Shown: piece by piece, positions 23,073 to 43,806 of the stretch | How positions within the stretch are numbered: position 1 is the stretch's first letter | Layout: each line of letters starts with the position of its first letter | Program-made: the position numbers and the translations under genes | Notes under the pieces: model-generated | Seen by the model: only the letters and a program-made list of their open reading frames with translations | What the model was told of the DNA's origin: nothing | Databases searched by the model: none | Source: a virus | Length of the DNA: 48,856 nucleotides | Virus record (IMG/VR): IMGVR_UViG_3300021964_000115 | Span: 1-48,856 of that record | Direction: 5' to 3' (one strand)

Positions 23073-24160
23073 TAGATAGATCCTATGGGGTCATCATAGT
23101 CATTTCGAACAATAGAGGGATCTGTTCTTGATACAGGATTTAATTGTCCTATCTCAGGATTAACAGCAGTCCCTCCAGGCCCCGTGTTGTATATCATTTG
23201 ATTATCATTGTGAAGAATAGACTGACCTCTCAAATCTAAGATAGAGCCGCCCACCTGAGCCGTGCCGTTAGCGACAATATTTAAATTATTTGTAGCGGTC
23301 ATATTTATATTGTTAGCTTGTATGTTCAAATCTTCCGATGTCACAATAGTAACTTTACCCTCACCGTTGACTTGGATTGTAGCCCCTTGAGTAATTATAT
23401 TTACATGACTATCAGAACCAAGGGCAGCTAAATCAATATTTCTTTCCCTGCTTTTAAGTCTGATGTTACCATACTTAGTACCATCTATAGCGTAGGCACC
23501 TGTAGAATTGTTTTCTATTAGATAATCTCCTCCGTCTTTAATCTTCCAAAGAATATCAGAGTTAGTGCATTTATACTGCTGTTGATTTATAGTCTCAACA
23601 GAGAGAGATCTCGGAGCATGGTAGTCAGTGCCCTTGGAATTATTCAGAACTATATGATCACCTTGATTGTTTGCTATCTGAATACCTCTATACCCAACAG
23701 TTACTTCGTCACCACTCTCCGACTTCAAAGTAACGTTATTACTTATTTTACTAGTTGAATACTCTCGGTGTATAATTAAACCGGCTCCAGCGCCGTTTGT
23801 GAATGTTTGAGTTACAGGAGCATAGGTGTCATCAGAATACACTTTCGCCTTAGAGTCACCTGTCCTAATCGGTTCGAAGTTTTCGTTACTTCTGTTGCCA
23901 GTCTCTTTTGGCTGATTTATAATAGAATTTAAATAGTATATTGATTCTTCTCCGCACTTTGGGAACTCGTTGTAGGCACACATCACTTGTGTTCCTACTT
24001 CTGGGAGAGCGATCATGCCTCCTGCGTTAGCCCTGTAGAAGGGGGATGTGTATGTTACTCTCACAGGTTCATTATTGGCGTGATCAGGGAAAGCTACCTT
24101 GAGAGTCCCAAGCTTATCAACGTCCGTATTACTTTTAACTATCCCTACTAGTATTTTCAT
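23072..24160 (-). CDS. 5: Tail spike/puncturing protein, gp5/VgrG-like without lysozyme domain
   Basis: The protein has 362 residues. The N-terminal roughly 95 residues form the OB-fold of gp5/VgrG proteins (LVGIVKSNTDVDKLGTLKVAF, then GGMIALPEVGTQVMCAYNE). The rest has short strand repeats (VTIVTSEDLNIQANNINMTA, NLNIVANG) typical of the gp5 C-terminal triple beta-helix needle. T4 gp5 has a lysozyme domain between the two parts; no such domain, cleavage site or Glu-based active site is visible here, and the total length leaves no room for it. It overlaps the giant hub gene by 4 nt, as expected for hub and spike made together. Cell-wall digestion must be done by another protein or is not needed. 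Confidence 0.85.
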   Translation of the reverse strand: MKILVGIVKSNTDVDKLGTLKVAFPDHANNEPVRVTYTSPFYRANAGGMIALPEVGTQVMCAYNEFPKCGEESIYYLNSIINQPKETGNRSNENFEPIRTGDSKAKVYSDDTYAPVTQTFTNGAGAGLIIHREYSTSKISNNVTLKSESGDEVTVGYRGIQIANNQGDHIVLNNSKGTDYHAPRSLSVETINQQQYKCTNSDILWKIKDGGDYLIENNSTGAYAIDGTKYGNIRLKSRERNIDLAALGSDSHVNIITQGATIQVNGEGKVTIVTSEDLNIQANNINMTATNNLNIVANGTAQVGGSILDLRGQSILHNDNQMIYNTGPGGTAVNPEIGQLNPVSRTDPSIVRNDYDDPIGSI

Positions 24161-27100
24161 TTACCAAACTTCCTTTCGTATTCTCTAATGTCTTCATATA
24201 TTTCTTTTCTATTCTGTCCGGCAAGACCAGTATCAGCTAATAAAAGTCTAATTCCAAAAAGCAAATCTGCGAGGTCAACACCCTCTAAACCTTCCCAAGC
24301 TTTTTTATACCTCTCTGTGCCAAAGACTGGCTCATCTAAACCAAATTGTTTTTCGTAAATACCTTTAAAGGCTCTAGATGCTGAGGTAATTCTACCTTCA
24401 GGTATTATTGGCTCATTACTGGATTCTACGGCTTCCTCAATTTTTGCAGGAGATTGATTTAATTTTTCCTGTGCGCTATCTAATTGTTTTTTGTAAAACT
24501 CTCCAAGAGTAGGATCAAGTTGTGACATTTCCCCAGGAACTCCCTTCTGAATTAGTGTAAACTCTGAATAAGCTGAATCTTGGCCTAAATGGTGTTTGTA
24601 CCCTATTATACTATATTCATTGCTAAATATAGATAAAGGTTTTTTATCTCTTTTGTGAATATCTGAACCTAATACTTGATTTGGATTACCATATAAGAAA
24701 CAAGATTCATTTATAAAGATATCTGAATTAAAGAAAGGTAAAGTTCTAATATTTACATTAAATATAGACTGATTTATTTTCTGCATCAGGTTACTTTCTG
24801 CATTCATTATCTTCCCTTGCTCAACTTTCCTAGTAACACTGATCGCTTCGCTGCCCAACACCTTGAATATTAAAAGCTCATAAAAAGTGCTTAATTTCAT
24901 TTCTTGCCTTTCAGCTTCTCTAATTAACTCCATTGCGTAGGTGTCGTCCTCCCTAATTAATTTATCTGCGGTAGCTATGATACTTCTCTTATCTCCTGCC
25001 TCTTCCTCTCTTAGCTGTTGGGCTAACGTATCTATAAAATCACTTTTTATAGAGTTATCTCTTAGTATTTGAGTTACATTCTGAGGACCATACTCATCTA
25101 TTAATCTATATGCGGATTCATTAACTACATTTAGTAGTACGCCAACGTAAGGTTTACTATCAAAGTTAACCTCTAAAACATTTGAGTTTCTAGTATTATG
25201 ACTAAATATGATCTTGTCAGAAATATTACTAACCCTTTTTCGTTCAGCTATCTTTCTAACTTCAGGTTGCTCTCCGTATGAAGATACTCTTGATTTACGG
25301 TTCTCCTTAAGATAGTCATTAAGGACTCTGGTATAAGCTCTCCAAGAATCAATGAAGCTGTCGTTGTCAATTGGCAGTGGATCATTACACCAGCCACGAC
25401 GTTCACGGCTACCCAGATCTGCTACTTCAGCATTATAAGGATCTATCTTCCCTATCAGTGAATCATCTAACGCTGGCTTTGACCTGTATATTAGTTTAGT
25501 AATTAAATTTTTTCTTCCAAAAATAACAACTGGCCTAGAGCCATCACTTATGAGTCCGGCAGAATAAAGCATATTTACAATCTTCATATTACTTTCTTCA
25601 TAAAGTGTGAAGTCTGCGTATTTATCTGAAAATAAGTTAACTCTTTTAATAAATTTGGAAAGAGGTCTTAGGAGAACTGGTGTCTCCTCGTCGTCTTTCT
25701 TAAGTTCATCACCCATCGAAAGAATCATTTCCCCTAACTCTAGCTCTTCTAAATTTGCATTCCAATCAATATTCATAGGAGTTGGCTTGCCTGTGGGAGA
25801 TCCATAAACGTTTAAGTCGTCATATAATTGAGAACGCATGGGGCCTTCAATAGCCTCCCTAAGAGGTGTCCCAGGATCTCCAAGAGCAAGGTTCAGCTTA
25901 TCAAGACCCATATCTAATAACTTTTGTAAACCTCCGGGCATAGCCATTGCATCCGCAAGCAATGGTGAAAAGTAATTTACTGCACTAAAAGTTAGACCAT
26001 CCCTATCAAGTACAGGTTGAAGCTCTTCAAGCAAGGTGCCTTCGCTACGTCTCGCCTTAAGCTCTTCTATCGTTAATTCTGATAAACGGCGCCTCTGCAA
26101 TTTTTCTCGTATTGTTTCAGCATCATCGAAGAAACCGGCTCTGGGTCTCTCATCAGGTTGGCCCGCAATTAATAACGCTCTTTGCAACTCGTCTAACTGT
26201 CTGTTCCTGTCTTGTAATTGATCTTCTAAAGAAAAACTTCGTGATGCCGCTCGGTCCTCATTTGGATCAAACAACTGCTGATTAAGCATACGAGCCCTGT
26301 ATGCTCTACCCGCTCTTGTAAGAGATTCCGAAATAATTTGAGATCCTTTTTCTTTTAGAAATTTCGCTAGTTTTGGTATATTTCTTCTCGTTGTTTTAAG
26401 ACTTTCCTTGATAAACTCTGGGGTATATGTCGCTGTAATTCCTAGTTTATTTAAATTTGAAGAAACACGAGCAGTTAGCTCTCTTCCTCTGAAGGACTTT
26501 CCACTTTTAGATATAACAACATCACTTTCAACTATAGATGGAGTGAAGGTCATTGTGTCTCTATTCTTTGAAAGAGGCTTTTCAATCTTATCTAAATCAT
26601 CATCAAATAATACAAGTATATTACCCCTAGGAACATTAGAATATACTTTAATCAAATAAGACAATATTAATTTTCTAATAACATAGTTCCATTTTATATT
26701 CTTACCATCTTCTCGTGGCACTAGCGGTTTTACACCTTCATAGTCCCATACGTTATCTCCCTGCACCGTCCTGTTTTTAGTTAATTCAATTTTTATAGAA
26801 GCGACGCACTCATCTTTTATACCAAGAGTGCTTTCTCTAGTATTGAATACGCTATCTCCTACCTTTGTAGTAACATCATACAATGCCTTGTTAGTAAAAG
26901 ATTTTAAAGTATCAAGACTTGGTGTAAACAATAATTCCAAATCTCGAATACCGTCAGGAGTCAGTCTAAGGTTTGCGTCTGCTAGATTGATTGCGTAAGG
27001 CCCTGACCAGGATCGAATATCATCCCCCATCCCGTAAGTTACATAAAACACAGGGCGTTGACGAAACAAGAAGTCCAACTCCAGTTCAGGTCCTAATATT

Positions 27101-27405
27101 ACAGACTGCTCTTCCATTCTACGCAGAACAGCTTCAGTCCAACCGTTAGGAGCTATCTGGAAAAATTCAAGTATTCTATTGGTTTCAATAAAACGAGCAC
27201 TGACATAGCTTTTGCCATCAGCTTGAAAAACAGAATCCATGCTTATGAACTCATTGTTTATACCAGGAGCTACTATAAATGTATTAGGATCTTCAGACGA
27301 TCTAAAGTCTGAAAACCTCGACTTGGTTTTTATTTTACTAAAGAAAATATCATCGATGACGTTAGGATCTCTAGTTATAATGATATTATAAGGCTTACCA
27401 GTCAT
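24157..27405 (-). CDS. 27: Giant baseplate hub protein, gp27-like
   Basis: The protein has 1082 residues, nearly three times T4 gp27 (about 391). The N-terminus contains a hub-type block (RPVFYVTYGMGDDIRSWSG, about residues 116-134, then LTPDGIRDLELLFTP). The C-terminal part has NVNIRTLPFFNSDIF and IIGYKHHLGQDSAYSEFTL, recalling the second gp27/gpD barrel. The large middle is helical and charged, including a coiled-coil-like stretch near residues 385-460 (LEDQLQDRNRQLDELQRAL). The extra mass suggests a hub with an additional collar or anchor for peripheral proteins. It sits between the gp53-like LysM gene and the spike, as in other contractile phages. Assignment is strong for role, weak for the middle domain. 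Confidence 0.75.
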   Translation of the reverse strand: MTGKPYNIIITRDPNVIDDIFFSKIKTKSRFSDFRSSEDPNTFIVAPGINNEFISMDSVFQADGKSYVSARFIETNRILEFFQIAPNGWTEAVLRRMEEQSVILGPELELDFLFRQRPVFYVTYGMGDDIRSWSGPYAINLADANLRLTPDGIRDLELLFTPSLDTLKSFTNKALYDVTTKVGDSVFNTRESTLGIKDECVASIKIELTKNRTVQGDNVWDYEGVKPLVPREDGKNIKWNYVIRKLILSYLIKVYSNVPRGNILVLFDDDLDKIEKPLSKNRDTMTFTPSIVESDVVISKSGKSFRGRELTARVSSNLNKLGITATYTPEFIKESLKTTRRNIPKLAKFLKEKGSQIISESLTRAGRAYRARMLNQQLFDPNEDRAASRSFSLEDQLQDRNRQLDELQRALLIAGQPDERPRAGFFDDAETIREKLQRRRLSELTIEELKARRSEGTLLEELQPVLDRDGLTFSAVNYFSPLLADAMAMPGGLQKLLDMGLDKLNLALGDPGTPLREAIEGPMRSQLYDDLNVYGSPTGKPTPMNIDWNANLEELELGEMILSMGDELKKDDEETPVLLRPLSKFIKRVNLFSDKYADFTLYEESNMKIVNMLYSAGLISDGSRPVVIFGRKNLITKLIYRSKPALDDSLIGKIDPYNAEVADLGSRERRGWCNDPLPIDNDSFIDSWRAYTRVLNDYLKENRKSRVSSYGEQPEVRKIAERKRVSNISDKIIFSHNTRNSNVLEVNFDSKPYVGVLLNVVNESAYRLIDEYGPQNVTQILRDNSIKSDFIDTLAQQLREEEAGDKRSIIATADKLIREDDTYAMELIREAERQEMKLSTFYELLIFKVLGSEAISVTRKVEQGKIMNAESNLMQKINQSIFNVNIRTLPFFNSDIFINESCFLYGNPNQVLGSDIHKRDKKPLSIFSNEYSIIGYKHHLGQDSAYSEFTLIQKGVPGEMSQLDPTLGEFYKKQLDSAQEKLNQSPAKIEEAVESSNEPIIPEGRITSASRAFKGIYEKQFGLDEPVFGTERYKKAWEGLEGVDLADLLFGIRLLLADTGLAGQNRKEIYEDIREYERKFGK

Positions 27406-27697: not shown

Positions 27698-28794
27698 GTT
27701 ACAGAAAAGTTCTCCCTACCTATCAAACCGTTTTGAGGATCTAAGTCATTATTACTTATAATAGACTCCCAACCAGTTAGGTTGTCTCCACTCTCGATTT
27801 GACCGGCTACATAAGATCCAAAATTACCAGTTCTAGACTCAACGAGCGAGAGCGAGACCTCTATTCTTTTAGGTGTCAGCGTTTCAAGCTCGTAACCTAC
27901 CTCATCTAGTATCCGTATATTATAATCCTCCATTAAGCAAGGAACGTTGTTATACATAGCTCCATGCGTGAGTCGTATGACCGGAGGTCCATAAAGTGTA
28001 TTTCTAGAGTTGTTTAGAACGGAAGCTCTTATCAGATTTACCCAAACATAAATCAAATCTAAATACTTATCTAGGTCTGTGACCCTACTTGATCTTTGTT
28101 CAAGCTCCAGCCCAAAGTCATTAGCAATCGAGGTTACAACACTGTCAGCTTCCTGTTGAGCAAGTTGAGCGTTTGTAATCTTGCCTATAAGCTTCCTGTA
28201 ATAGTTCCTATGAGTTAACGCATACTGCTGCCCTACTTCATTTATCTTTTGATCTTCGTTGCCTAAGAAATCATTTGCAGCTACCTCATCCTCAGCCTCT
28301 TGAAGTCTTACTCTAGTTTCTTCACTGATACTGGCATTACGACCAAAAGATTTGCTGTAAGATTCGATTGATTCCCGTATGGCTTCGGCTTCTTCTTTAG
28401 ATTCTCTACGAAGATCAAATAACTCCTTTGATCTCTCTCTGTCTGTGAAGAATAAGTTAAACTGTCTTCTAAACATATCACGAATACCTTCTTTGATATC
28501 CATCTCCATGACATGTAAGAGAGTAATGTTGAATACTACTTTTATTCTTCTAGACTTCGCACCAGCATACGCAAACAATTCCCCTGCACGACCAATAAGT
28601 TCATAGTTGTTTAAGTTGGCTCTTCCTATTTCGTTTATCTGAGGATTTTCGAGAAAGGGAATAAATGTTCTTATGACTCGTCCGTTTGATTGTGGGAACT
28701 CCAAAGCCATATGAGATCTTTCATGCAAGAATCTTTTATTTACTTTAGACTTCTTTCCGAAGTCTTTAAACTGATCTTTTAAGAAAGTTACCAT
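27694..28794 (-). CDS. 48: Tail tube initiator / baseplate tube cap, gp48/gp54-like
   Basis: The protein has 366 residues, the same size as T4 gp48 (364). The N-terminal block HMALEFPQSNGRVIRTFIPFLENPQI and NYELIGRAGELFAYAGAKSR, together with the C-terminal RLTHGAMYNNVPCLMEDYNI and RIEVSLSLVE, give the split-barrel tube fold used by tube-initiation proteins. A long helical insert (about residues 110-230) separates the halves. The gene has a GGAGG site 8 nt before the ATG and overlaps the tape-measure stop by 1 nt. Order tape measure, gp48, LysM (gp53), hub, spike is typical. I cannot decide between gp48 and gp54, and only one is present here. Confidence 0.7.
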   Translation of the reverse strand: MVTFLKDQFKDFGKKSKVNKRFLHERSHMALEFPQSNGRVIRTFIPFLENPQINEIGRANLNNYELIGRAGELFAYAGAKSRRIKVVFNITLLHVMEMDIKEGIRDMFRRQFNLFFTDRERSKELFDLRRESKEEAEAIRESIESYSKSFGRNASISEETRVRLQEAEDEVAANDFLGNEDQKINEVGQQYALTHRNYYRKLIGKITNAQLAQQEADSVVTSIANDFGLELEQRSSRVTDLDKYLDLIYVWVNLIRASVLNNSRNTLYGPPVIRLTHGAMYNNVPCLMEDYNIRILDEVGYELETLTPKRIEVSLSLVESRTGNFGSYVAGQIESGDNLTGWESIISNNDLDPQNGLIGRENFSVT

Positions 28795-30455
28795 TATCTA
28801 ACCTCCGTGGTTCTAACTCTAGAACCCCTTTGAATATTAGCAGTAGAAAGAAGCTCTGCGATATAGTTTAAAATGTCTGCATTTTCTTTATAATCAATCA
28901 TATTTCTAGATCGAAGATATCCAAATATGGATTGAGCACGTTGAATTTCCATTGAAGATTCCTTTGCCCTAGCAAGATTCTCTTTATCTTTCTCTCTTTG
29001 ATTTATTTCAGTGTCAGCTTTAGCACTTTTTTCAGTATTATCCGCAACTTGAGCTAACAAATCTTTAGATCGGTCTGCTATACCTTCAAGTCCCCCAAAG
29101 TGGTTAACCAGTCCACCAATAGCTGCACCAAACACTGCGCCTACAGGACCCAAAACAGCTAAACCTAGAGAAGCACCTCCTAATGCCCCTTGCTCTACAC
29201 TACCCTGCTCGAACATAGAAGCGCCATAAAGACCGGCGGCTGCACCACCAACTCTTGATACCCCACCAGCAATTTTCATAAAACTACCCGCACGGCTAGT
29301 GGGTAGAAGTCCTAATAACGCTCCAAAAGCCATAGTTTGATCTGTGATACTCTTAACTAGATTTGTATCTATTTCTCCTAGCTTGCCTAACATATCTATG
29401 GCAGTCTCATCATAGAATTTCCTCGCTCTCTCATTAATATTTTGGAAGTTGTTAAAGGTATCGTCGTCAGTCTTCTTCATCTCCTCAGAAAGCTCATAGT
29501 TACTTTGAAGTTGCTTTCTAAGATTGAGCAGTTCGTTTACTGCACCCGCTCCCCCTAAGCCTGATAATCTAGCTGTTAAACCGGCTCCAATTGCAAGAGG
29601 ATCATTACCTCTAAACCCTTCGGCCATCATTGCAAGGTTATCAAGAATTGGGGTGAGGTCAGAGATGTTTAAAGCCTGACCAGCCCCAAGTTTAGCGCGG
29701 GCCTGTTGTGCTCCAAGCCTTATAGCTGGGTCAAGAGTTGCAAAATCTCCTGTGACAATCTTGAGAAGACTTCTAATTGCGCCCTCAGATGCCTTGCCTC
29801 CAGTTCGACCCATAAGCTGCATGGTTATGGCTTCTAAGGAGGCAGTAGATTTCGCGCCGAAGAACGAAGACTCTTCGAACACATCCCGCAAGCTGTTTAC
29901 AGAGTTTATAAGTTTTTCATTTGATACGCCATACTTATCACTTACTTCTTTATTGACTCTATTCACAGTCTCTAAGGCATCAATATTATCTCCTGTAAGG
30001 AGGAGAAGGTCAGAGTTCATACGAGTAAGTGCTTGAAGGTCCTGACCCGTAGCTATCATTTCCTCGCTCAACTCCATTAAAGCGGGAGTTTGAACTCGAA
30101 TACCTGATTCGAAGTTAGCAGCGATAGCGTCAATTAGTTTTTGATTACTTACTAAACCCTTACTGAGAACGTCAGTATTCTTGTTTACAAATTTAGTAAG
30201 CTTTTCGTTTGTAGTTCCCAGAGCAAGGGCATACCTATTACTCTGGTCTAATCTAGTTATGGAATCCTGAAGCCTAGTTATGGGGTTTGCGAACTGAGTG
30301 GCAGCAGCAGCTACCTGACGAGTGGCTTGTACAACACTCAGATTGAGCTTTCTAATAGCCTGCGTGTAATCAATAAGCTCTGACCGGACATCAATATCAA
30401 CTCTCTGTGTCCTGTTGTTGTTATTATTGTTTCCGCCTACGTTAGTGCTAGTCAT
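28794..30455 (-). CDS. 29: Tail tape measure protein, gp29-like
   Basis: The protein has 553 residues, close to T4 gp29 (590). It is mostly helical. After a poly-Asn N-terminus (residues 9-14), residues about 30-360 are long amphipathic helices with many Ala, Leu and Gln. Residues about 370-455 are hydrophobic and Gly/Ala-rich (AGGVSRVGGAAAGLYGASMF, LGPVGAVFGAAIGGLVNHFG), the usual membrane-active segment of tape measures. The C-terminus is helical and charged. The protein sets tail length and is ejected with the DNA. It starts TAATG with the preceding gene and precedes the gp48-like cap by 1-nt overlap. For a tape measure of this length a tail of roughly 80-90 nm would be expected (about 1.5 angstrom per residue). 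Confidence 0.75.
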   Translation of the reverse strand: MTSTNVGGNNNNNNRTQRVDIDVRSELIDYTQAIRKLNLSVVQATRQVAAAATQFANPITRLQDSITRLDQSNRYALALGTTNEKLTKFVNKNTDVLSKGLVSNQKLIDAIAANFESGIRVQTPALMELSEEMIATGQDLQALTRMNSDLLLLTGDNIDALETVNRVNKEVSDKYGVSNEKLINSVNSLRDVFEESSFFGAKSTASLEAITMQLMGRTGGKASEGAIRSLLKIVTGDFATLDPAIRLGAQQARAKLGAGQALNISDLTPILDNLAMMAEGFRGNDPLAIGAGLTARLSGLGGAGAVNELLNLRKQLQSNYELSEEMKKTDDDTFNNFQNINERARKFYDETAIDMLGKLGEIDTNLVKSITDQTMAFGALLGLLPTSRAGSFMKIAGGVSRVGGAAAGLYGASMFEQGSVEQGALGGASLGLAVLGPVGAVFGAAIGGLVNHFGGLEGIADRSKDLLAQVADNTEKSAKADTEINQREKDKENLARAKESSMEIQRAQSIFGYLRSRNMIDYKENADILNYIAELLSTANIQRGSRVRTTEVR

Positions 30456-30917: not shown

Positions 30918-31208
30918 ATGAGCACGTTAGAAGAGGATTTAGTTGAAACTATTGATTTACTTAACTTCACTTTCTCTAGTGATTTTATTGATAAGTGGAG
31001 TTTTAAGTATGGTAAAAGATTACCTAGTCTATATCAACTTAGATTACTTAAGTCTTTAGATACAAGAAAACCACTAAAACTACAGACAGTCTACAAATTC
31101 CTGGTTGTAGATTCTGGTTTTAATGAAGAGGTTATTAAATCTTTCTTAGAAGATATTGATTACGAGATTTACTTCCCTATCATTAAGGGGAGAATAATTG
31201 ATCTCTAA
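30918..31208 (+). CDS. Unknown small protein, divergent from the tail operon
   Basis: The protein has 96 residues, acidic and helical with many Leu, Phe and Tyr. It begins MSTLEEDLVETIDLLNFTF and ends FPIIKGRIIDL. No motif is recognised. The ATG has no ribosome site but is preceded at 12-13 nt by CTATTTATAG, as for other plus-strand genes here. It ends tail-to-tail with the nuclease gene (4-nt overlap). The segment FNEEVIKSFLEDIDYEIYF could be a protein-interaction helix. Because it shares the plus-strand element with primase and UvsW, I infer it is expressed with the replication genes, possibly as a small regulator or a loader; that is speculative. Confidence 0.55.
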   Translation: MSTLEEDLVETIDLLNFTFSSDFIDKWSFKYGKRLPSLYQLRLLKSLDTRKPLKLQTVYKFLVVDSGFNEEVIKSFLEDIDYEIYFPIIKGRIIDL

Positions 31209-31984
31209 ACCTTCTTCTTAAGCTCTTTCTGCTCGTCGATTCGCTTACAAACAATTTCTTCTGAGTTGAATTTAGGACAAGCATCCTTATACTCGCACCA
31301 GTCACAGAAGATGTTCTCCTGAGCCCAGAACTCATCCTTCTTCTTCTTTCGGATACGCCAGACTTTCTCAGTCTGCATCTTCTTCCAACGTTCGATCTGG
31401 AATCTAGTGAACTTTACAGCCACGAAGTTTCCCGTGACAGGGTAGTAGTGAGCACAGTAGATCTTGTCGTAAGGAACATCGTAGAGCATGTGGATAGCCC
31501 AGGCGTAACCCTTTAACTGATTATCATCCATGAGGGTCTTCTTCTTCTTTTCCCTCTTAGAGGTCTTGTAGTCCACAACCAGATATCCACCGTCACTACC
31601 TTTGATGACACGGTCGATGACACCAATGAAGTTAATGTCGTGCTTCTCATCGAGAGGAACATTGACGGTTTGTTCAGTAGACATCGTCTCACCAAGACCG
31701 TTGTTCCAAACAATGAAGTTCTCCAGGCAGGACTTCATCCTATCGTTCTCATGGAAGGGAACTTTGTAAGTTGCACGTTCCTGTTCCGCGATCTTAAGCA
31801 AGGACTTCATGTCCTTCTCTTTATAGCCAAGCTCAAATATCTTGTGTATAAAGGATCCGAAGTTCAAAGCGTCTTCATTCTTCGAGCCGAATCCCGGCAG
31901 CTTTAAGATGTATTTCAGTCTGTACTTCCACAGGCACTGGTCTATAATGTCACTCTTAGAGGCACTAATACTATTTATGAACAT
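31205..31984 (-). CDS. Cas4/RecB-family PD-(D/E)XK nuclease with Fe-S cysteines
   Basis: From the ATG at 31984 the protein has 259 residues. It carries FGSFIHKIFELG (RecB-family His motif), GVIDRV followed by LVVDYKTSK (the acidic and D-x-K catalytic residues), and a QLKGYAW block (motif QxxxY). One Cys near the N-terminus (DQCLWKYRLKY) plus FCDWCEYKDACPKF near the C-terminus gives the C...C-x2-C-x5-C set that holds a 4Fe-4S cluster in Cas4 and AddB nucleases. Such enzymes resect DNA ends. No CRISPR array or Cas1 is visible. A TTG start at 32023 and an ATG at 32002 are alternatives. I chose 31984 because AAGGA lies 10 nt upstream and homologous domains begin about there. It diverges from the primase. 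Confidence 0.75.
   Translation of the reverse strand: MFINSISASKSDIIDQCLWKYRLKYILKLPGFGSKNEDALNFGSFIHKIFELGYKEKDMKSLLKIAEQERATYKVPFHENDRMKSCLENFIVWNNGLGETMSTEQTVNVPLDEKHDINFIGVIDRVIKGSDGGYLVVDYKTSKREKKKKTLMDDNQLKGYAWAIHMLYDVPYDKIYCAHYYPVTGNFVAVKFTRFQIERWKKMQTEKVWRIRKKKKDEFWAQENIFCDWCEYKDACPKFNSEEIVCKRIDEQKELKKKV
31971..31982 (+). promoter_or_regulatory. Leaderless-type promoter element CTATTTATGAAC before the primase
   Basis: This 12-mer sits immediately before the primase ATG at 31983 and has the same spacing and similar sequence as the elements before 30918, 34793 and 43805. It overlaps an alternative ATG (31977) and lies within the nuclease reading frame on the other strand. Confidence 0.35.
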
Positions 31985-32933
31985 GGGCTCTGATTCCTTC
32001 ATTAGAAAATACTGCTTGGACAAGTTCCAGTCTAATTATAGACTCCAGAGCGACGATACCGAGCTTGTAGTTCCCTCTATCTTTGTAACAAACGATTACA
32101 AACGTCACATGTCGATCAACATGGAGACGGGACTGTGGCGTTGCTTTAAGACTGGTGAGACTGGTAACTTCCTCAAATTGTATGCTGTCCTTGAGAAGTG
32201 TAGCTACCGTGAAGCATACGAGAAGTTTGTCTTCGAGGACTTCATGGCAGGCTACAAAGGTCGGAGGCCAGTCGAGCAGTTTGATCCGAATGAGATTGAT
32301 TCCGACCTCGACGAGTCACAACACTTTGAGGTTGTTCACGACCACCCCTTCGTGCAGTCGCGTGGAGTAGATCAGTTCAAGTTCTACACGGCTACGGGTG
32401 GAAAGTATAAGGGCAGGCTGATCATTCCATTCATCAACCGGAACGGTAAGCTCTTCTACTTCCAGGGTCGAGCATTGGGTAATGAGCAGCCCAAGTATCT
32501 GAACTGCAAGAACCTCAAGAGTTCTCAGGTCCTATACCCGTTCGATTACGCCTCTCAGGAGCCCCTGTACGTCACTGAGGGCGTCTTTGATTGCCTTAGC
32601 CTACAGGCGGTAGGGTTGAACGCTACGACGACTCTAAGCTGCTTTACGAGCCGTGAGCAGATCCTTCAACTTAGCCAGTATACAGGACCACTCGTTTGTG
32701 CTTTCGATAATGACGAGGCAGGAACTAAGGGCCGTAAGAAGTTTATGGACCTCGCCCACTGGATCAGGAGAGATGACCTGTTCTCAGTTGTGCCTACCGC
32801 TCCCTATAAGGACTGGAATGAGATGCTCGTTAAGAAGGGATCAGACTTCTTGAGAGCGGAGGCTGAGAAGATCGGTAAGCTAGATGCACTTCACCTAATG
32901 TATCTAGCGTATGATAAAGGCCATGTCATTTGA
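31983..32933 (+). CDS. DNA primase with TOPRIM domain and degenerate zinc-ribbon
   Basis: From the ATG at 31983 the protein has 316 residues. Residues about 195-250 hold the TOPRIM domain: the LYVTEGVFDCLSL block supplies the catalytic Glu, and LVCAFDNDEAGTKG supplies the D-x-D metal-binding pair. Residues about 35-90 (MSINMETGLWRCFKTGETGN) match the core of a CHC2 primase zinc-ribbon, but only one Cys remains, so the zinc site appears lost. A middle block (GRLIIPFINRNGKLFYFQGRA) is the usual DnaG-type N-terminal catalytic region. It makes RNA primers for lagging-strand synthesis. It is shorter than T4 gp61 (342). Its end overlaps the convergent structural gene by 30 nt. The start is shared with the divergent nuclease (CATG); an ATG at 31977 is an alternative. 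Confidence 0.8.
   Translation: MGSDSFIRKYCLDKFQSNYRLQSDDTELVVPSIFVTNDYKRHMSINMETGLWRCFKTGETGNFLKLYAVLEKCSYREAYEKFVFEDFMAGYKGRRPVEQFDPNEIDSDLDESQHFEVVHDHPFVQSRGVDQFKFYTATGGKYKGRLIIPFINRNGKLFYFQGRALGNEQPKYLNCKNLKSSQVLYPFDYASQEPLYVTEGVFDCLSLQAVGLNATTTLSCFTSREQILQLSQYTGPLVCAFDNDEAGTKGRKKFMDLAHWIRRDDLFSVVPTAPYKDWNEMLVKKGSDFLRAEAEKIGKLDALHLMYLAYDKGHVI
32029..32044. repeat. Perfect 16-bp inverted repeat with TATAAT on the minus strand
   Basis: AGTCTA-ATTA-TAGACT is a perfect palindrome. Its minus-strand reading contains an exact TATAAT (32040-32035), 12 nt before the TTG at 32023 and about 51 nt before the ATG at 31984 of the nuclease. It is inside the primase coding sequence. It may be the nuclease promoter or an operator; a good -35 box is not seen. 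Confidence 0.35.
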
Positions 32934-33845
32934 TACGATGGTCTGGTTCAGAGCATTGAACTTAAGTCTTGCGACATAGGTGCCCGTCATAGAACCCAGA
33001 GTCCCGTCAAGAAGGCTTGGGTGGGTCTTGAGAGTTTCTGTATCAAATGTGAATATCACTGTGTTTTCAGATGTGGTATCCATCAATCCAGAAGTAGCAG
33101 AGTAACCAGAAACTTCAACTCTTGCATCAAGATTACGATCCTGATTCTTCTTGTAGATTTCAAGCATTGGGTCTGTGACTAAGGATTGCTTGAAGAGATT
33201 CACTATGCTGCGATCTATATTGGCGTTCTCAAGCGTAAACTCATTGGTAAATTTGAGATCAACTTTCGAGCCCAGCACAAGGTAATTGTTCTCAAGTCGA
33301 GTCGCCACCCGGAACAAAAGAGGTTCGGTGACACCGAAGAATCTATCTTCAGTGAGCGTGAACTCATTGATGATAGTGTCTAAGTCAGATCCCGTATTTC
33401 TCTTAAGAGTCCAAACATCAATGTAGTCCCCTGTGGCAGATACTCTGTTCAAGATGGTGGTATCACCAGAAAGATTAAATACGCCATAAGGAGTATCTTG
33501 CACATCATTTAAGACAACTGCATATTTACCAGTAGAAAGTTTATAGATGCCCGAAGCTTCTTGCACATTGTAATTGCTAGCATCAAAAGAACTAGAATTA
33601 GTGAGAGAACTTTCGTTTGAGAAATGCATCAACACATTGCCGCTAGCATCAGGGCTGATCTCTCCGTCAGCAGTGATTACAGAACTCGGAGACTGGTTAT
33701 TAGATGCAGCAAAGATAGATACACCACTGATCTCATAAGGATCAGCATATTGCCCATCATTAATGAAATATAGTAAGAGCGCAGTTGGACCCAACACAGT
33801 GGGCCGTTCATATCTTGTGGTAACTTGATTTCCGTTGATTTTCAT
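32904..33845 (-). CDS. Structural protein after the gp51-like gene
   Basis: The protein has 313 residues and looks like an all-beta virion protein: many Ser, Thr, Asn and alternating hydrophobics. It opens TTRYERPTVLGPTALLLYFI, then FNLSGDTTIL and STGKYAVVL, and closes ARLKFNALNQTIVSNDMAFI. I do not recognise the family. The ATG has GGAGAG at a good distance and lies 1 nt after the gp51-like stop, so it is in the gp26-gp51 operon. Its 3' end overlaps the convergent primase by 30 nt. A baseplate or tail-associated role is inferred from context; Ig-like domains are possible. Confidence 0.6.
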   Translation of the reverse strand: MKINGNQVTTRYERPTVLGPTALLLYFINDGQYADPYEISGVSIFAASNNQSPSSVITADGEISPDASGNVLMHFSNESSLTNSSSFDASNYNVQEASGIYKLSTGKYAVVLNDVQDTPYGVFNLSGDTTILNRVSATGDYIDVWTLKRNTGSDLDTIINEFTLTEDRFFGVTEPLLFRVATRLENNYLVLGSKVDLKFTNEFTLENANIDRSIVNLFKQSLVTDPMLEIYKKNQDRNLDARVEVSGYSATSGLMDTTSENTVIFTFDTETLKTHPSLLDGTLGSMTGTYVARLKFNALNQTIVSNDMAFIIR

Positions 33846-33846
33846 G

Positions 33847-34062
33847 CTAACTCTCCAGCTTCTTCACTTCCTCGGCGTAAAAATTAGTAAAGGCTAAACG
33901 TTCCTTTTGAGTCATAGTTTTCACATCCGAATAAGATAAGCCTACCTTATTTACTAATATATACGCTTGGTAAAGAAGATCCTCCGAGGATAAACTGTTA
34001 GTTAGCTCACTGAAAAAAAACCGACATTCATAGGGACTGACATTGTCTCCTCGTGAGTGCAT
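33847..34062 (-). CDS. 51: gp51-like tail assembly protein (probable frameshift partner of gp26)
   Basis: The open frame has 71 codons from an ATG at 34062, which directly follows an in-frame TGA and has no ribosome site. The last 55 codons, from residue 17, are likely the functional part, reached by -1 frameshifting from the gp26 gene at 34014. They are helical, with GLSYSDVKTMTQKERLAFTN near the C-terminus, like the T domain of lambda-type tail assembly chaperones. In T4, gp51 is a small protein encoded next to gp26 and needed for baseplate hub assembly. Overlap with gp26 is 61 nt. A separate product from the ATG cannot be excluded but looks poorly translated. Confidence 0.65.
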   Translation of the reverse strand: MHSRGDNVSPYECRFFFSELTNSLSSEDLLYQAYILVNKVGLSYSDVKTMTQKERLAFTNFYAEEVKKLES

Positions 34063-34757
34063 TCAGGGCATTCAAATACAAACTTAGGATTTACCCCATA
34101 TTCTGCTTTATTTATCTCAGCCATTAACTTTTTAATATCCTGAAGGTGCATCCTCTTCAATGCCTTAGATATAAAAACTGGATCTTGGTTGCCATTGATA
34201 GAAACAACGAATCGATACATATTCTTGTATATCTGGTCTGCGTCAGTTAAGAAGAACTCCTCCTTGCTTCTAGGAAATCTAACTTCAGCATCTACACCAA
34301 GTCTTGGGAGTTTAACCTTTCTAGGATCTTCTAAATCGTCAGGAACTTGAGTCATATTAAGGTGATTAGAGAGACTCAAGGATGTCTTAATATCGGAGGA
34401 GCACATGGGGCAAGTTATATTGAAGTCGTAACTATCACCATACGAAACCTCACGAACCTTCATCAGAAGAAACATCTTATCCATGGAAAGCAACTCATCA
34501 ATATTGACGCCCTCAACAGACTTCTCAAGTAGTTTAGAAACCACATCTGACTTAGGGTCTCTATTACTTAAAATCTTCTGTTCATCTAAAAAAGTTAAAG
34601 GTTTGATCTCGACTCCCTGGAAGCCTTCATAAAACTTACCTTTTGAAGGTAGGTCTACAATGTTTAAAGTATCATCCCCTGAGTTTGAGAATAGCTCATT
34701 AAGAGCGTCCTCTCTCGGATCCCCAGAACTGCCAACTATCTGTTTGTTTTCACTCAT
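34002..34757 (-). CDS. 26: Baseplate hub assembly protein gp26-like with two CxxC pairs
   Basis: The protein has 251 residues (T4 gp26, 208). The N-terminal part has LPSKGKFYEGFQGVEIKPLT and the block LLSMDKMFLLMKVREVSYGD, which match the T4 base plate protein family found across marine T4-like phages. Two CxxC pairs, CPMC near residue 115 and CPEC near 235, probably bind one zinc and are common in this family. The start has AGG at 7 nt. It ends at a run of eight T that allows -1 shifting into gp51 to give a 303-residue fusion. The minus-strand promoter-like CTATAATAGT is 24 nt upstream. It is divergent from UvsW, which in T4 lies close to the 25-26-51 cluster. Confidence 0.8.
   Translation of the reverse strand: MSENKQIVGSSGDPREDALNELFSNSGDDTLNIVDLPSKGKFYEGFQGVEIKPLTFLDEQKILSNRDPKSDVVSKLLEKSVEGVNIDELLSMDKMFLLMKVREVSYGDSYDFNITCPMCSSDIKTSLSLSNHLNMTQVPDDLEDPRKVKLPRLGVDAEVRFPRSKEEFFLTDADQIYKNMYRFVVSINGNQDPVFISKALKRMHLQDIKKLMAEINKAEYGVNPKFVFECPECTHEETMSVPMNVGFFSVS
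34014..34020 (-). other. Programmed -1 ribosomal frameshift site, T TTT TTT
   Basis: In the gp26 frame the codons read GGT TTT TTT TCA, so bases 34020-34014 form the heptamer T TTT TTT, a standard X XXY YYZ slippery sequence in phase. Slipping back one base gives TTC AGT GAG CTA in the gp51 frame. The product would have 248 residues of gp26 plus 55 of gp51. This is the arrangement of the G/GT tail chaperones in lambda-like phages. The total run is eight T (34013-34020). Confidence 0.6.
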
Positions 34758-34792: not shown

Positions 34793-36175
34793 ATGAAGAT
34801 AGTAGTGGGTAACTTAACGTCTACCTTAGAAACAGATAATCCTAAGATAATATCCGCTCTGAGAAACAAGTATGCTTTCTCAGTCCCAGGCTACCAATAT
34901 TCTACTGCTTACAAGAGGAAGACATGGGATGGGAAGAAAAGATACTTCGGAGCTAACGGTAAGTTTAGAACTGGTTTACTTAGACGTATTGTAGCAGATC
35001 TAAATGAGATTGGAGCAACTGATATTGAATGGGAAAATAAGCCTGAAGAGCAAGAACCCTTCATCCCCTCAGTTGGTAACTTTGAGTATCGTGAGTATCA
35101 GAAAAAGGCTATCTATCAGTGCCTTAAGAAGCGTAGAGCTATCGTAGACAGCCCTACGGGGTCTGGTAAGACTCTCATCATGGCAGGATGTATTGCTGCG
35201 TTACAACACGATAAGGATATTACAGCAGTTGTCTTGTTCCGAGAAAAGGGTATCCTCAACCAGACTTACGAGTTCTTCAAGCGGTGTGGGATTCGTGATC
35301 TCGGATACAATTCAGGTGAAGGATTTATTGATGGAAAGATCATGCTATCCACAGTTCAAAGTATTGAGCGTATAGTGGATACACACCTACAAGCTGATTT
35401 GCTTATGGTTGACGAAGCTCATCAGTTCTGCAAGGGAGAGACCACCATAGCAGCCGTTGAGAGCTTCCCTAACGCCTCCTACAGGCTTGCATTTACTGCT
35501 ACCCCTCCAAGGGAGAAGGCAAAAGATATCAACGCTAGGATGGTCCTAGAGGGCGCATTTGGCCCCGTATACACGACACGCACGGCAGAGGATCTGATTA
35601 AGGACGGTGCCCTTGCAAAACCTATCATTCAGATTGTGGATAACACTCCAGTCTCATCTGTGCCTGACGACCTTTCCTATCTTGAGATATACGAAGAGTG
35701 TATCGTAAACTGTGACAGGCGCAACGATAAGATCAAGACAATTGTATCAAAAGTATACCAGTCTAACCCTAAGGCTAAGATCCTCATACTTGTAAAGAAC
35801 TTGCAACATGTAGAAAACCTACAACAGAGAATCGACAACTGCTACACTATTGAGGGTAAAGATGATATCGACAGTAGATATGATATCATTAACAAATTTG
35901 TAAAGGATGATAAGCCTGCTACTATTGTAGGAACAAACGTCATGCAGACTGGTATCAGTATTGACGAGATCAGTCATATGATCAATGCTAGAGGATTGTC
36001 TGGTGAAGTTCCGACATTGCAGGGTTTAGGTCGAGGTATTCGTAAAGCGAAGGGGAAAGACGAGATGTATTTCTACGACTTCTATGACCGTATGCCATAC
36101 CTTGAGAATCACTCCAAGCAAAGAATACACCACTACGAAACATTAAAGTTTGAGGTTCACAATGTCAGATTCTAA
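34793..36175 (+). CDS. uvsW: UvsW-like superfamily 2 DNA helicase
   Basis: The protein has 460 residues (T4 UvsW, 503). The N-terminal domain (about 1-85, including the WDGKKRYFG and FRTGLLRRIVADL blocks) has the UvsW pattern of G-x-W-D-G followed by a strand. The helicase core has Walker A SPTGSGKT (about 120-127), a DEAH box (LLMVDEAH, 203-210), motif III TATP (about 235-238) and an Arg-containing motif VI (QGLGRGIRKAKGK). In T4 this enzyme remodels recombination and replication forks, including R-loops. It starts at ATG 34793 with the leaderless-type element and overlaps the next small gene by 14 nt. Recombination helicase function is confident. Confidence 0.9.
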   Translation: MKIVVGNLTSTLETDNPKIISALRNKYAFSVPGYQYSTAYKRKTWDGKKRYFGANGKFRTGLLRRIVADLNEIGATDIEWENKPEEQEPFIPSVGNFEYREYQKKAIYQCLKKRRAIVDSPTGSGKTLIMAGCIAALQHDKDITAVVLFREKGILNQTYEFFKRCGIRDLGYNSGEGFIDGKIMLSTVQSIERIVDTHLQADLLMVDEAHQFCKGETTIAAVESFPNASYRLAFTATPPREKAKDINARMVLEGAFGPVYTTRTAEDLIKDGALAKPIIQIVDNTPVSSVPDDLSYLEIYEECIVNCDRRNDKIKTIVSKVYQSNPKAKILILVKNLQHVENLQQRIDNCYTIEGKDDIDSRYDIINKFVKDDKPATIVGTNVMQTGISIDEISHMINARGLSGEVPTLQGLGRGIRKAKGKDEMYFYDFYDRMPYLENHSKQRIHHYETLKFEVHNVRF

Positions 36176-40441: not shown

Positions 40442-42259
40442 TTATTTAGCCCCGTCTTTCGGGGTTATTTTATTAAAATGCTGTTTCTCACTCATCTCTT
40501 CAAGCAGTTTGATCAATTCATCATCACAACCAGACTCTATAGCAAGAGATTTCATAGAGTTGTAATCTAAAGATTCAGCAGCAGTTGGGGGTGTGTTCTC
40601 AGCCGATTCCATAGGAGGCCCTGGTGGTTGTCCCATATCACCAGCCATAGGATCACCCATTGGAGCCCCACCTGGAGGCATCATGCCAGGAGCCATCATC
40701 ATCTGACCAAAGACCGGATCCTTTTGATCCTGCTCAAGACCCTTCTTAGCTTCTTCAATCTCACTGTCAGACATCTGGTAGTAATCCTTGTAGATCTTCT
40801 CCATTGGGAAGATCATAAGACCCTTAACAGCTTGGACAACACGAGCCTTCTGCTCATCAGTATCAAGCATTCGCTTGAGAGCCATGTCGGAAGGAGCAGG
40901 AAGCTTAATCTTAAGTTTAGAGATAAGTGTGGTTGGGAAACCCTTAAGCATTAAGTGTCTCTTAGCAATAGTCTCTAAACCAAGCTCAATCGACTTTTGG
41001 ATTCTGGTGATAACTCTGGCAAACTTAACATCAAGCTGCGACAGGTTAGCTTTACGCTCAGGCGATTGATCTTTCTCAACGATGTAATCCTTCGGAATCT
41101 TAAGTGCAGCAAGCAACTTATCTCTAAAGTATTTCACATCGTCAACCTCACCAAGGTTTTCAGCACCCGGTAATGTATCAATCTTAGTGCCAGTGCCCTT
41201 ACCATTTACAGCAATGTAGAAGTCTTCATCAGCAGCTAATGCATTGAAGTTTTCTTCAATGTTACCCGTTTGCGAGTTGTAGCTCTTACGCTTCTTAAAC
41301 TTATCCATCTGCTTCTTGATATGCATCTCAGCCTTAGAAGCAGGCAGCGAACCCGTATCAATGTAGAAGATACGACGCTCAGGAGCACGCACAAGACGAT
41401 AGATGAGCATTGCGTCTTCCATCATCTTCAGGCTCTTATAGGTCACTCTAGCAGCCGCAGCAACCGACTTACCGTAGGGATAGTGTGTTGGGTCAGAGGT
41501 GTGAAGTCTAAAGTGAACAATCTGACCAGGATCTAAGTTAATGATGCGAGAGTCATCTAAGTAAGGACCAACCGAACCATAAGTGCTCCAATCGTTTTTC
41601 TCTGGGATCTCCTGTAAGAACTGCTTCAGGTAACCAAACTCATCTTCAACGCGGAAGATAAAGTTAGGGTTGAGAATCTTAATGCGCTGAATACCACGCT
41701 TAATATTGTTAAGGTCAACAATCGTCTCAAGGAAGATGTCACCATATTTAACAACGTTTCTAGAGATGTCCCAAAGGTAGCGAGTCATGTTAACTTGCTC
41801 AAACATGTTCTCAACCTCAGACTTAGTCATCTCATCGTCAGTAACAATATCCCATGCTGTGCCGTCAATGTTCTCCTGCGTGCAGTCATCGCTGTAAATG
41901 TCGAACGCGGACGAGATCTCTGGGTATCCGTCCATATCCTCATATTCTTTGTATCGCTTCTTGCGATCAAACTCAATTTGAGGGAGAATTGGATAATAAG
42001 TTTTCTTGTGACCAAACTCCGAAGGAACCTTGATAATATCCTTCGACTGAACAGTGTCGCCTTGAAGTGGACGAGGTGGATCAATCCTTCTCTTGGTAAC
42101 AGGATCTTGGATCTTGTAATCAGGATGATCCTCAACTTCACGAGAGAAGAACTTCTTAAAGAATCTCCCTATGAGCCCGTAGGGCTTGTTATACGGTTGC
42201 ATCGGGTCTGCAAACTGCGTATATCCTTCACCACCTTCTCTTAATTTCTTAGCAGCCAT
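40442..42259 (-). CDS. 20: Portal protein, gp20-like
   Basis: The protein has 605 residues (T4 gp20, 524). N-terminal part RPLQGDTVQSKDIIKVPSE and YPILPQIEFDRKKRYKEYED; wing and stem typical blocks DMDGYPEISSAFDIYSDDCT (about 106-125), GYLKQFLQEIP, YPYGKSVAAAARVTYKSLKM and RAPERRIFYIDTG. The block KYFRDKLLAALKIPKDYIVE is the strongest portal signature. The C-terminus is Met/Pro/Gly-rich (MMAPGMMPPGGAPMGDPMAG). It forms the dodecameric DNA channel at one capsid vertex and binds the terminase, whose gene it overlaps by 19 nt. The extra C-terminal length is mostly the low-complexity segment. The terminator hairpin sits on its last codons. Confidence 0.9.
   Translation of the reverse strand: MAAKKLREGGEGYTQFADPMQPYNKPYGLIGRFFKKFFSREVEDHPDYKIQDPVTKRRIDPPRPLQGDTVQSKDIIKVPSEFGHKKTYYPILPQIEFDRKKRYKEYEDMDGYPEISSAFDIYSDDCTQENIDGTAWDIVTDDEMTKSEVENMFEQVNMTRYLWDISRNVVKYGDIFLETIVDLNNIKRGIQRIKILNPNFIFRVEDEFGYLKQFLQEIPEKNDWSTYGSVGPYLDDSRIINLDPGQIVHFRLHTSDPTHYPYGKSVAAAARVTYKSLKMMEDAMLIYRLVRAPERRIFYIDTGSLPASKAEMHIKKQMDKFKKRKSYNSQTGNIEENFNALAADEDFYIAVNGKGTGTKIDTLPGAENLGEVDDVKYFRDKLLAALKIPKDYIVEKDQSPERKANLSQLDVKFARVITRIQKSIELGLETIAKRHLMLKGFPTTLISKLKIKLPAPSDMALKRMLDTDEQKARVVQAVKGLMIFPMEKIYKDYYQMSDSEIEEAKKGLEQDQKDPVFGQMMMAPGMMPPGGAPMGDPMAGDMGQPPGPPMESAENTPPTAAESLDYNSMKSLAIESGCDDELIKLLEEMSEKQHFNKITPKDGAK
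40450..40464 (-). terminator. Terminator-like hairpin at the 3' end of the portal gene
   Basis: CCCCG-AAAGA-CGGGG on the minus strand forms a 5-bp GC stem, followed by CTAAATAATTTT. It overlaps the last codons of portal, and the stop codon lies in the A/T tract. Read on the plus strand, the same hairpin has an even better tail (TTATTTTATT), so it may also stop antisense transcription. The stem is short, so only partial termination is likely. Confidence 0.45.
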
Positions 42260-43806
42260 TCAAGTTTCTCTTCTGTTAGACCTTGCGTAGATGTCTTCAA
42301 CTTATATGTATGAGCGTTACGGATGGCTGGTGGGATATAAGTATCATCTTCTGCCTTTTCTATGTAAGCATTCCCTCTTAAGTTATTAAAAATGTTAATA
42401 GCAGCGGCGAAGGACATAATTAAATCGTCATGACAGTTAGTATCAGGCTTAACCTTACCCGTCTCTGGGTCAATAATGAATGTTAAAAGCTCATTAACCA
42501 GTCTGTCCGAACTAATTAAAACTTTACCTGACCTAATATTGTGTTCGAGATCGGCCAATAAAGTCTCTTTATTTTTCTGTGTAATCATAATTCCGATCTC
42601 TCGTTTGTCGTCCATCACCAGATTTTCATACTCAAACTCCTGCTGAAGGAAGTAAATTAAGTTGTTGCCGATTCCATTCCGCTCAGGACACACAAATGCA
42701 GTGTTGTAAAGCCTAGCCTCATCTGCTATGATTTTAGCGAACTCATTGATAGGCGTCCTGTTGGAGTAGAACTCAGCCACCTGTTTACCATTATAGATGT
42801 CGATGATGTGAAAAGCTGAGTAATCACGTTCACGACCAATTGACGGGTCAGCAGCTAAGACATATTCGTGGTTAGGTTGTGGATCCTCCCAAATACGCAT
42901 ACGGTTGTTATATTTGATCCAGTAATCTTTATTACAGTTTTCTTTTAGATTACGAAGAATCTCACCCTCAATATAAGTCTCACCTGTGCCTAAGAAGCTA
43001 GCCTCATATTCCTGTAGCCACTCTTTGTAACTGTGTTTGCGGCGAGTTTGCTCTTCCCACTTGTCTACATTGATTGGAGGGTTGCACGATTCCATTTGCT
43101 CATAGAGCCACTCAAACCCGTCATGCCTTTTATATTCTGGGTGCTCTTGCCATTTAATATCAATGGGGTGGAATCCGTTGTCACCTTCCATCGCCTGCGT
43201 ATACATCTTATGGAACCAGTTACCAATACCATTAACCGTAGACAGGCACACCACACGGCCACCAGTGGACGTTGTAGGGCCTACAGCGGCCCAAATCGTA
43301 TCAATGTGCTCAATGAACGCTGCCTCATCTAAGATGAGCAGAGAAGCCGAAATAGAGCGTCCAGACTGCTTGCCTGAAGCCTTGGACTGAATAGATGATC
43401 CATTTTCAAAAGAGAGAGTGTGGTCATTGTCTCTGGTAGTCTTAGGCTTCATCCAGAACGGTAACTCTTCATACATGATCTTGATACGAGAGATAACTTC
43501 CTTTGCTTCTGCATCACCTTTAGACAATACAGCAACTCTCTTGTTTGTACCAAAGATGCAAAAGTGTAACGCATAAGCTGCCATCAATGTTGTGCAGCCA
43601 GCTTGTCTAAACTTACGTAAGATGGTTAGTCGATAGTCTTGGAACTCATCAAGGATACGGGACTGGAAGGGGTAAAGTTTAAAGTTTACCATTCCACGCA
43701 TTGGGTGAACGACCTTGATGTAATTGTTTGTAAAATATTCGCAACTACGAGAACATTTCTTAAATTCCTCTGCGATGTGCTCCAGGTCTTCGCTATTATT
43801 ATTCAT
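42241..43806 (-). CDS. 17: Terminase large subunit, gp17-like
   Basis: The protein has 521 residues (T4 gp17, 610). The ATPase half has a deviant Walker A KFRQAGCTT (about 65-73), where the Lys is shifted to the front instead of the usual GKT, and a Walker B LLILDE (156-161). Motif III is VVCLSTVNG. The RNase H-like nuclease half has LAADPSIG (Asp about 320), VCPERNG (Glu about 375) and NCHDDLIMS (Asp about 460/461), the expected acidic triad. It packages DNA into the prohead and cuts the concatemer. Its ATG shares bases with the divergent glycosyltransferase start (CATG 43804-43807). No terminase small subunit is found upstream, and no ribosome site is visible. Confidence 0.9.
   Translation of the reverse strand: MNNNSEDLEHIAEEFKKCSRSCEYFTNNYIKVVHPMRGMVNFKLYPFQSRILDEFQDYRLTILRKFRQAGCTTLMAAYALHFCIFGTNKRVAVLSKGDAEAKEVISRIKIMYEELPFWMKPKTTRDNDHTLSFENGSSIQSKASGKQSGRSISASLLILDEAAFIEHIDTIWAAVGPTTSTGGRVVCLSTVNGIGNWFHKMYTQAMEGDNGFHPIDIKWQEHPEYKRHDGFEWLYEQMESCNPPINVDKWEEQTRRKHSYKEWLQEYEASFLGTGETYIEGEILRNLKENCNKDYWIKYNNRMRIWEDPQPNHEYVLAADPSIGRERDYSAFHIIDIYNGKQVAEFYSNRTPINEFAKIIADEARLYNTAFVCPERNGIGNNLIYFLQQEFEYENLVMDDKREIGIMITQKNKETLLADLEHNIRSGKVLISSDRLVNELLTFIIDPETGKVKPDTNCHDDLIMSFAAAINIFNNLRGNAYIEKAEDDTYIPPAIRNAHTYKLKTSTQGLTEEKLEWLLRN
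43793..43804 (+). promoter_or_regulatory. Leaderless-type promoter element CTATTATTATTC before the glycosyltransferase
   Basis: This 12-mer directly precedes the ATG at 43805 with the same spacing as the elements before 31983 and 34793. It lies within the first codons of the terminase gene on the other strand, in codons for Asn, so coding sequence partly constrains it. Confidence 0.3.

Follow-up and report, generated by a model that had tools for sequence, protein, structure and literature searches.

Gene Organisation at the Locus

The window, i.e., the whole 48,856-nt stretch of viral DNA analysed here (IMG/VR record IMGVR_UViG_3300021964_000115, positions 1 to 48,856), represents part of a T4-like marine phage genome and encodes, among others, a terminase, the portal protein gp20, a UvsW helicase and gp25 (Table 1). 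At the place of a baseplate hub protein lies a gene for a 1082-aa protein (24157-27405), for which Pfam and PHROGs returned nothing significant. The locus considered here comprises, on the minus strand, a gp26-like gene whose product belongs to the family PF12322 (T4_baseplate; E = 1.5e-17, 64.5 bits against a curated cut-off of 24.5, profile positions 6-218 of 219) and to phrog_150 (E = 6e-17). Its 3' end reads GTC GGT TTT TTT TCA GTG AGC TAA, where a T TTT TTT heptamer stands in the gp26 phase within a run of eight T (T8). Following a tandem slip on this heptamer, the -1 frame would read TTC AGT GAG CTA ACT and onwards to a stop codon at 33849-33847, and the predicted long form would be composed of 248 gp26 residues and 55 extension residues. 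As such, the original prediction of an in-phase slippery heptamer, an ORF in the -1 frame overlapping gp26 by 61 nt, and products of 251 and 303 residues was right in coordinates, phase and lengths, and direct reading further confirmed that the only ATG of the second ORF (34062) directly follows a stop codon and is preceded by no Shine-Dalgarno-like motif.

The start of the next gene, immediately past the stop codon of the extension, has a similar counterpart in the marine loci L133 and L142. A tape measure gene had also been placed downstream; a probable one exists, assigned by position and composition and with no sequence match in phages, but it is not adjacent, some 3.4 kb including opposite-strand genes lying in between. 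This interval holds the 313-aa gene, an opposite-strand primase-like gene (31842-32933), a PD-(D/E)XK nuclease gene (31205-32023) and small genes, where an adjacent layout is the usual one.

Table 1. Coordinates of the features discussed, in the window and in the loci with a putative +1 site
Feature	Sequence	Position	Strand	Basis or remark
gp26-like gene, 251 aa; predicted short tail assembly chaperone form (TAC-N, G-like)	Window	34002..34757	-	PF12322, phrog_150
Slippery heptamer T TTT TTT, gp26 phase, part of T8 (34013-34020)	Window	34014..34020	-	Invariant in 19/19 distinct relatives
0-frame stop TAA, 9 nt 3' of heptamer	Window	34002..34004	-	
-1 frame extension, 55 codons + stop, FSELTNSLSSEDLLYQAYILVNKVGLSYSDVKTMTQKERLAFTNFYAEEVKKLES; T-like / T4 gp51 C-terminal domain	Window	33847..34014	-	pN/pS 0.17; hhalign chain via bridging loci
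Predicted -1 frameshift product, 303 aa (TAC-NC, GT-like; putative functional counterpart of T4 gp51)	Window	33847..34757	-	
Mechanical -1 frame ORF from ATG 34062 ("gp51" of the original prediction)	Window	33847..34062	-	Start codon absent in 12/19 distinct relatives
Region of strongly reduced synonymous change, ~80 nt from heptamer; candidate frameshift stimulator	Window	33934..34014	-	pS
Next gene, 313 aa, unknown function; start 1 nt past the extension's stop codon	Window	32904..33845	-	
Probable tape measure protein, 553 aa	Window	28794..30455	-	Position and composition only
Terminase	Window	42241-43806		
Portal gp20	Window	40442-42259		PF07230, 1.5e-82
UvsW helicase	Window	34793-36175		
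gp25	Window	19994-20437		
Putative +1 site	L033 (SP-15)	6680-6720		
Putative +1 site	L031 (LIS04)	6670-6710		
Putative +1 site	L036 (GXN1)	6700-6740		

Slippery Site and -1 Frame in Close Relatives

Scanning viral contigs provided 26 metagenomic relatives retaining the 3' end of the gene, corresponding to 19 distinct sequences (window included) that are 63-100% identical. T8 occupies the same place in all 26, while the codon before the T run varies (GGT, AGT, ACT or AAT, and TCT or GCT in cyanophages) yet always ends in T. Among these close relatives, the 0-frame tail FFSVS and its stop are conserved, and the -1 frame is invariably open for 55-57 codons past T8. An in-phase T TTT TTN is rare, with only three occurrences in the 16,154 codons of the window, T8 being the sole one on the minus strand.

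Past the 0-frame stop, pN/pS amounts to 0.17 in the -1 frame, against 1.34 in the 0 frame and 2.08 in the +1 frame, a pattern indicating purifying selection on the -1 frame. In twelve of the 19 distinct sequences, the stretch from the nearest upstream -1 stop to the heptamer contains no ATG, GTG or TTG and, in two loci (L024 and L026), the -1 frame opens just 6 nt before the heptamer. These sequences share with G/GT-type pairs a -1 ORF under coding selection, in most of them without a start of its own. A chance overlap of frames was considered and rejected on account of the selection on the -1 frame and of an internal control, i.e., a second in-phase heptamer (T TTT TTA) at codon 55 of gp26, which occurs in the window sequence only, whereas the 3' heptamer is kept in 19 of 19.

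Synonymous Constraint Around the Slip Site

Pairwise synonymous change stands at 0.85 in the gp26 body and 0.59 in its last 18 codons. On the 3' side of the heptamer, it falls to 0.00 over the four dual-coded codons and 0.20 over the next 23 codons, then returns to 0.68 beyond; the lowest 23-codon window is the slip site itself (0.11), compared with 0.73 for the lowest elsewhere in the gp26 body. Since dual coding covers the first four codons only, the next ~70 nt must be conserved at the nucleotide level for some other reason, most simply as a candidate RNA element promoting the shift. Upon folding with RNAalifold, the constrained segment gave weak hairpins, one of them a 5-bp stem (AUCCU/AGGAU) that has a single compensatory pair, and no clear stimulator structure. 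Two other candidates were discarded, namely (i) a T4-type late promoter as the source of the constraint, no motif recurring upstream of other genes, and (ii) a pseudoknot in which the hairpin loop AACYRRC would pair with a downstream UUAGU, where reading of the alignment revealed loop variants without covariation.

The -1 Arrangement in Other Phages

The in-phase heptamer is found in all 79 cyanophage-type gp26 genes, as T TTT TTC in 75 and with TTG or TTA as the last codon in two each. At these loci, at most one sense codon precedes the gp26 stop, the -1 extension is 60-67 aa long where complete, and a start codon upstream of the heptamer is present in none of the 79. In KVP40-like vibriophages, GAT TTT TTC is followed by a -1 extension, as are T8 in phage C48C1 and an in-phase T TTT TTN in jumbo phages. 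The same arrangement occurs in the single-cell marine virus AG-345-D19, XacN1, 121Q and relatives, LR756511 and relatives, as well as in a marine clade comprising L133 and L142-L147, in which the extension forms a bridge from that of the window to the others. No relatives were found in bacterial genomes.

The conservation of the slippery site in homologues, which the original prediction proposed as its check, is therefore borne out in the close relatives (26/26), the cyanophage loci (79/79) and the KVP40-like, jumbo and single-cell marine phages, most of them without a start codon for the second ORF; a conserved slippery site is another feature shared with G/GT-type pairs. In 121Q and the vibriophages, an ATG overlaps the gp26 stop (TAATG) and the ORF is annotated separately, and these phages may have added a separate start beside the frameshift. 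As for genomic position, SP-15 and LIS04 have gp26 flanked by the genes for tail tube and tape measure; in vibriophages, the tail tube gene lies on one side and a large tape-measure-sized gene on the other. Lambda G/GT and P2 E/E' are placed likewise.

T4 gp26 and gp51

Both T4 gp26 and gp51 match PF12322 (8.8e-64 and 3.9e-52, respectively) and each other (2e-6), and along the 282 positions of phrog_150 gp26 covers 14-235 and gp51 13-280. Judged from these alignments, the two proteins are paralogues, gp51 being a gp26-like body plus the extension, i.e., a permanently fused long form. The designation of the short ORF as gp51 consequently holds for the C-terminal part only, T4 gp51 being a full gp26-like body with its extension. 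In T4, genes 26 and 51 lie on opposite strands and are divergently transcribed, so that their joining by frameshift is impossible.

Regarding the extension itself, hhalign related the gp51 C-terminus to the cyanophage extension (94.8%, E = 5e-8) and to the set from Schizotequatrovirus vibriophages and marine phages (95.7%, 9e-9), and the bridging clade to both the window extension (95.9%, 6e-9) and the T4-like set (68%, 5e-5). Between the window extension and the T4-like set, the profile match is weak, be it direct, i.e., without the bridge (E = 0.0098, a value reached by 2 of 60 column permutations), or with the bridge (E = 0.004, reached by none of 100). Homology of the window extension with the gp51 C-terminal domain thus appears established through intermediates, the direct comparison being weak.

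In complete or large records, PF12322 is present in a single copy wherever an out-of-frame extension exists and in two copies in all T-evens. The FF residues are mostly kept in T-even gp26, where they are coded GAG TTC TTT GAG (L037 3803-3850; 3' ends of gene 26 in L118-L127); with these codons the slippery run is gone, and none was found in gp26 of T4 and nine others. GAG TTC TTT GAG would then be the vestige of a lost slippery run and, in the simplest history, duplication would have replaced frameshifting in the T-even line. This order is favoured by single-copy frameshifting genes in many more distant lineages; the reverse, where frameshifting arose after a two-gene state, is formally conceivable. 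Of note, gp51 of one T-even (L126, IMGVR_UViG_2974754850, record 125062-125666) is split into two frames of 126 and 153 codons, either by mutation or by sequencing error.

Structure and Comparison With Known Systems

The AlphaFold (AF2) model of the window gp26 has a pLDDT of 80, with the SP-15 baseplate hub subunit as best match in BFVD, and that of the gp51-type protein a pLDDT of 85. Fold matches in BFVD comprised T4-like gp26/gp51 and unnamed proteins only, and PDB returned no match, whether to the gp51-type model by fold or to the gp26 family profile by sequence. In PDB and BFVD, gp26 showed neither homology nor a shared fold with any known TAC protein, lambda gpG included. In view of this lack of solved-structure match, the likeness to lambda G is claimed for mechanism and arrangement and not for descent.

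The frameshift products gpG/gpGT of lambda and gpE/E' of P2 were reportedly described by Xu, Hendrix and Duda in 2004. Like the predicted pair of the window, they are two products of one gene, arising from a low-level -1 shift near its 3' end, and they are encoded within the tail assembly region. Unlike them, the window pair does not immediately precede the tape measure gene, and for gp26 the searches gave no sequence or fold relation to gpG. Closer at hand, T4 gp26 (TAC-N) and gp51 (TAC-NC) share with the window the same body family (PF12322, phrog_150) and an extension homologous via intermediates, but T4 relies on two duplicated, divergently transcribed genes without slippery site, where the window phage has one gene and a -1 shift; T4 gp51 has been reported to be absent from the virion (PMC3004832). 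In cyanophages and KVP40-like vibriophages, gp26 and a short gp51 correspond, as in the window, to a single-copy gene with a -1 extension of ~60 codons after an in-phase T TTT TTC; the window differs by T8 instead of T6C, its proteins are about 15-25% identical to theirs, and its extension is linked to theirs through bridges. Phages SP-15, LIS04 and GXN1 have the same gp26 family and an out-of-frame C-terminal extension, the next gene downstream being the tape measure in SP-15 and LIS04, but their extension lies in the +1 frame (NCC CGA TTY) and that of the window in the -1 frame.

Proposed Mechanism and Alternative Explanations

The gp26-like gene is very probably a single tail assembly chaperone gene, from which a -1 shift would yield a short and a long form, i.e., a TAC-N/TAC-NC pair. 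Most ribosomes would stop at the 0-frame TAA and release the 251-aa TAC-N, and a minority would move back by one base at T TTT TTT, probably aided by a nucleotide-level element in the next ~80 nt, to produce the 303-aa TAC-NC, which ends in a helical domain. On the model of lambda G/GT, the tape measure would be coated by the short form, and the extension would bring in components of the tail tube or hub; the two forms would depart before completion of the virion. In T-evens, the same two products would come from the duplicated genes 26 (short) and 51 (long), the slippery site having decayed. We infer the ribosomal nature of the slippage, its efficiency and the chaperone action; the frameshift reading draws on the conserved in-phase site, the -1 coding selection, the missing start codons, the gp51 homology via intermediates and the copy-number complementarity.

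Missing start codons weigh against the alternative that the second ORF is a separate gene, whether translated from the ATG at 34062 or by ribosomes re-initiating past the gp26 stop. The in-frame ATG of the window and the TAATG just past the gp26 stop of the separately annotated ORF in vibriophages and 121Q speak for it, but the window ATG has no Shine-Dalgarno-like motif before it, 12 of 19 relatives and all cyanophage loci are without a suitable start, and it is the slippery run that is kept everywhere and not the ATG, which leaves this alternative highly improbable. Since long runs of T or A permit transcriptional slippage, the -1 frame might instead be read from transcripts in which RNA polymerase has slipped at T8 and added a base, a reading to which the invariance of T8 in the window clade lends some weight. 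Other phages with this arrangement nonetheless have runs of only six T, the next base being C, G or A and the phase exactly X XXY YYZ, and such runs are usually too short for slippage of this kind, and the T-final preceding codon is what tandem codon slippage requires. The T6-type relatives thereby argue for ribosomal slippage as the shared mechanism and, even if transcriptional slippage at T8 could contribute in the window clade, it is very unlikely to be the explanation by itself. Homopolymers of eight are also error-prone, and an assembly or sequencing error might have broken one continuous frame; agreement on T8 between 26 independently assembled contigs, the conserved 0-frame tail and the same arrangement at T6C in distant isolate genomes make this almost certainly wrong.

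Variants in the +1 Frame and Possible Routes to the Long Form

In SP-15, LIS04 and GXN1, the gp26 extension follows NCC CGA TTY in the +1 frame and resembles the -1 extension of LR756511 (69.5%, 4e-5); between SP-15 and LIS04, its pN/pS of 0.23 marks it as coding. In-frame start codons exist upstream of this extension in the three phages, for which we infer +1 decoding. Within this one chaperone family, frameshifting appears to have changed direction. In LR756508 (L032 4710-4830), a gp26 without T run is followed by a +1 frame extension (PSDYSGKLQQEIQQLIYYSNGG...), and this phage may represent another +1 case with a different shift site.

On balance, we lean modestly towards a scheme where the long form in the T4 family would be reached by three routes, namely (i) a -1 shift in this phage, cyanophages, KVP40-like phages and jumbo phages, (ii) a +1 shift at NCC CGA TTY in SP-15, LIS04, GXN1 and perhaps LR756508, and (iii) duplication with loss of the slippery site in T-evens, the C-terminal domain being kept and the decoding swapped, and with the -1 shift of the window clade helped by a conserved RNA element of ~80 nt of a new form. 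The +1 variants offer a natural comparison for the replacement of a frameshift mechanism.

Relation to Previous Work

Frameshifting of the G/GT type was described as widespread "except T4" (Atkins et al., 2016; PMC5009743). The chaperones serving tail assembly in T4-like phages have since reportedly been identified (Vladimirov, Gautam and Davidson, 2022; Virology 566:9-15, 10.1016/j.virol.2021.11.003). Of two papers citing it, the PRFect paper refers to it for T4-like phages with one short and one fused long gene and no frameshifting (PMC10885494), and the Adele paper for -1 signals of the poly-T type in the chaperone genes of T4-like phages (PMC12846349). The link of T4 gp26/gp51 to chaperone frameshifting is already published (Vladimirov et al., 2022). 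The connection to G/GT put forward in the original prediction is thus right as to mechanism and arrangement, though not new, with T4 itself using no frameshift and with gpG homology absent in PDB and fold searches. Gp51 of cyanophages and marine vibriophages was noted to be without its first ~200 residues (Sullivan et al., 2010; PMC3037559), which the frameshift would explain. What is new, as far as the literature covered shows, is the divergent T8 lineage, the constraint on some 80 nt past the heptamer, the comparison of copy numbers and the description of +1 variants.

A deeply divergent, uncultured marine T4-like lineage would accordingly use the standard tail-chaperone frameshift known in most tailed phages, and T4, which has long been cited as the exception, probably represents a derived state. 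At the level of genome annotations, the second ORF is often missed or given a wrong start.
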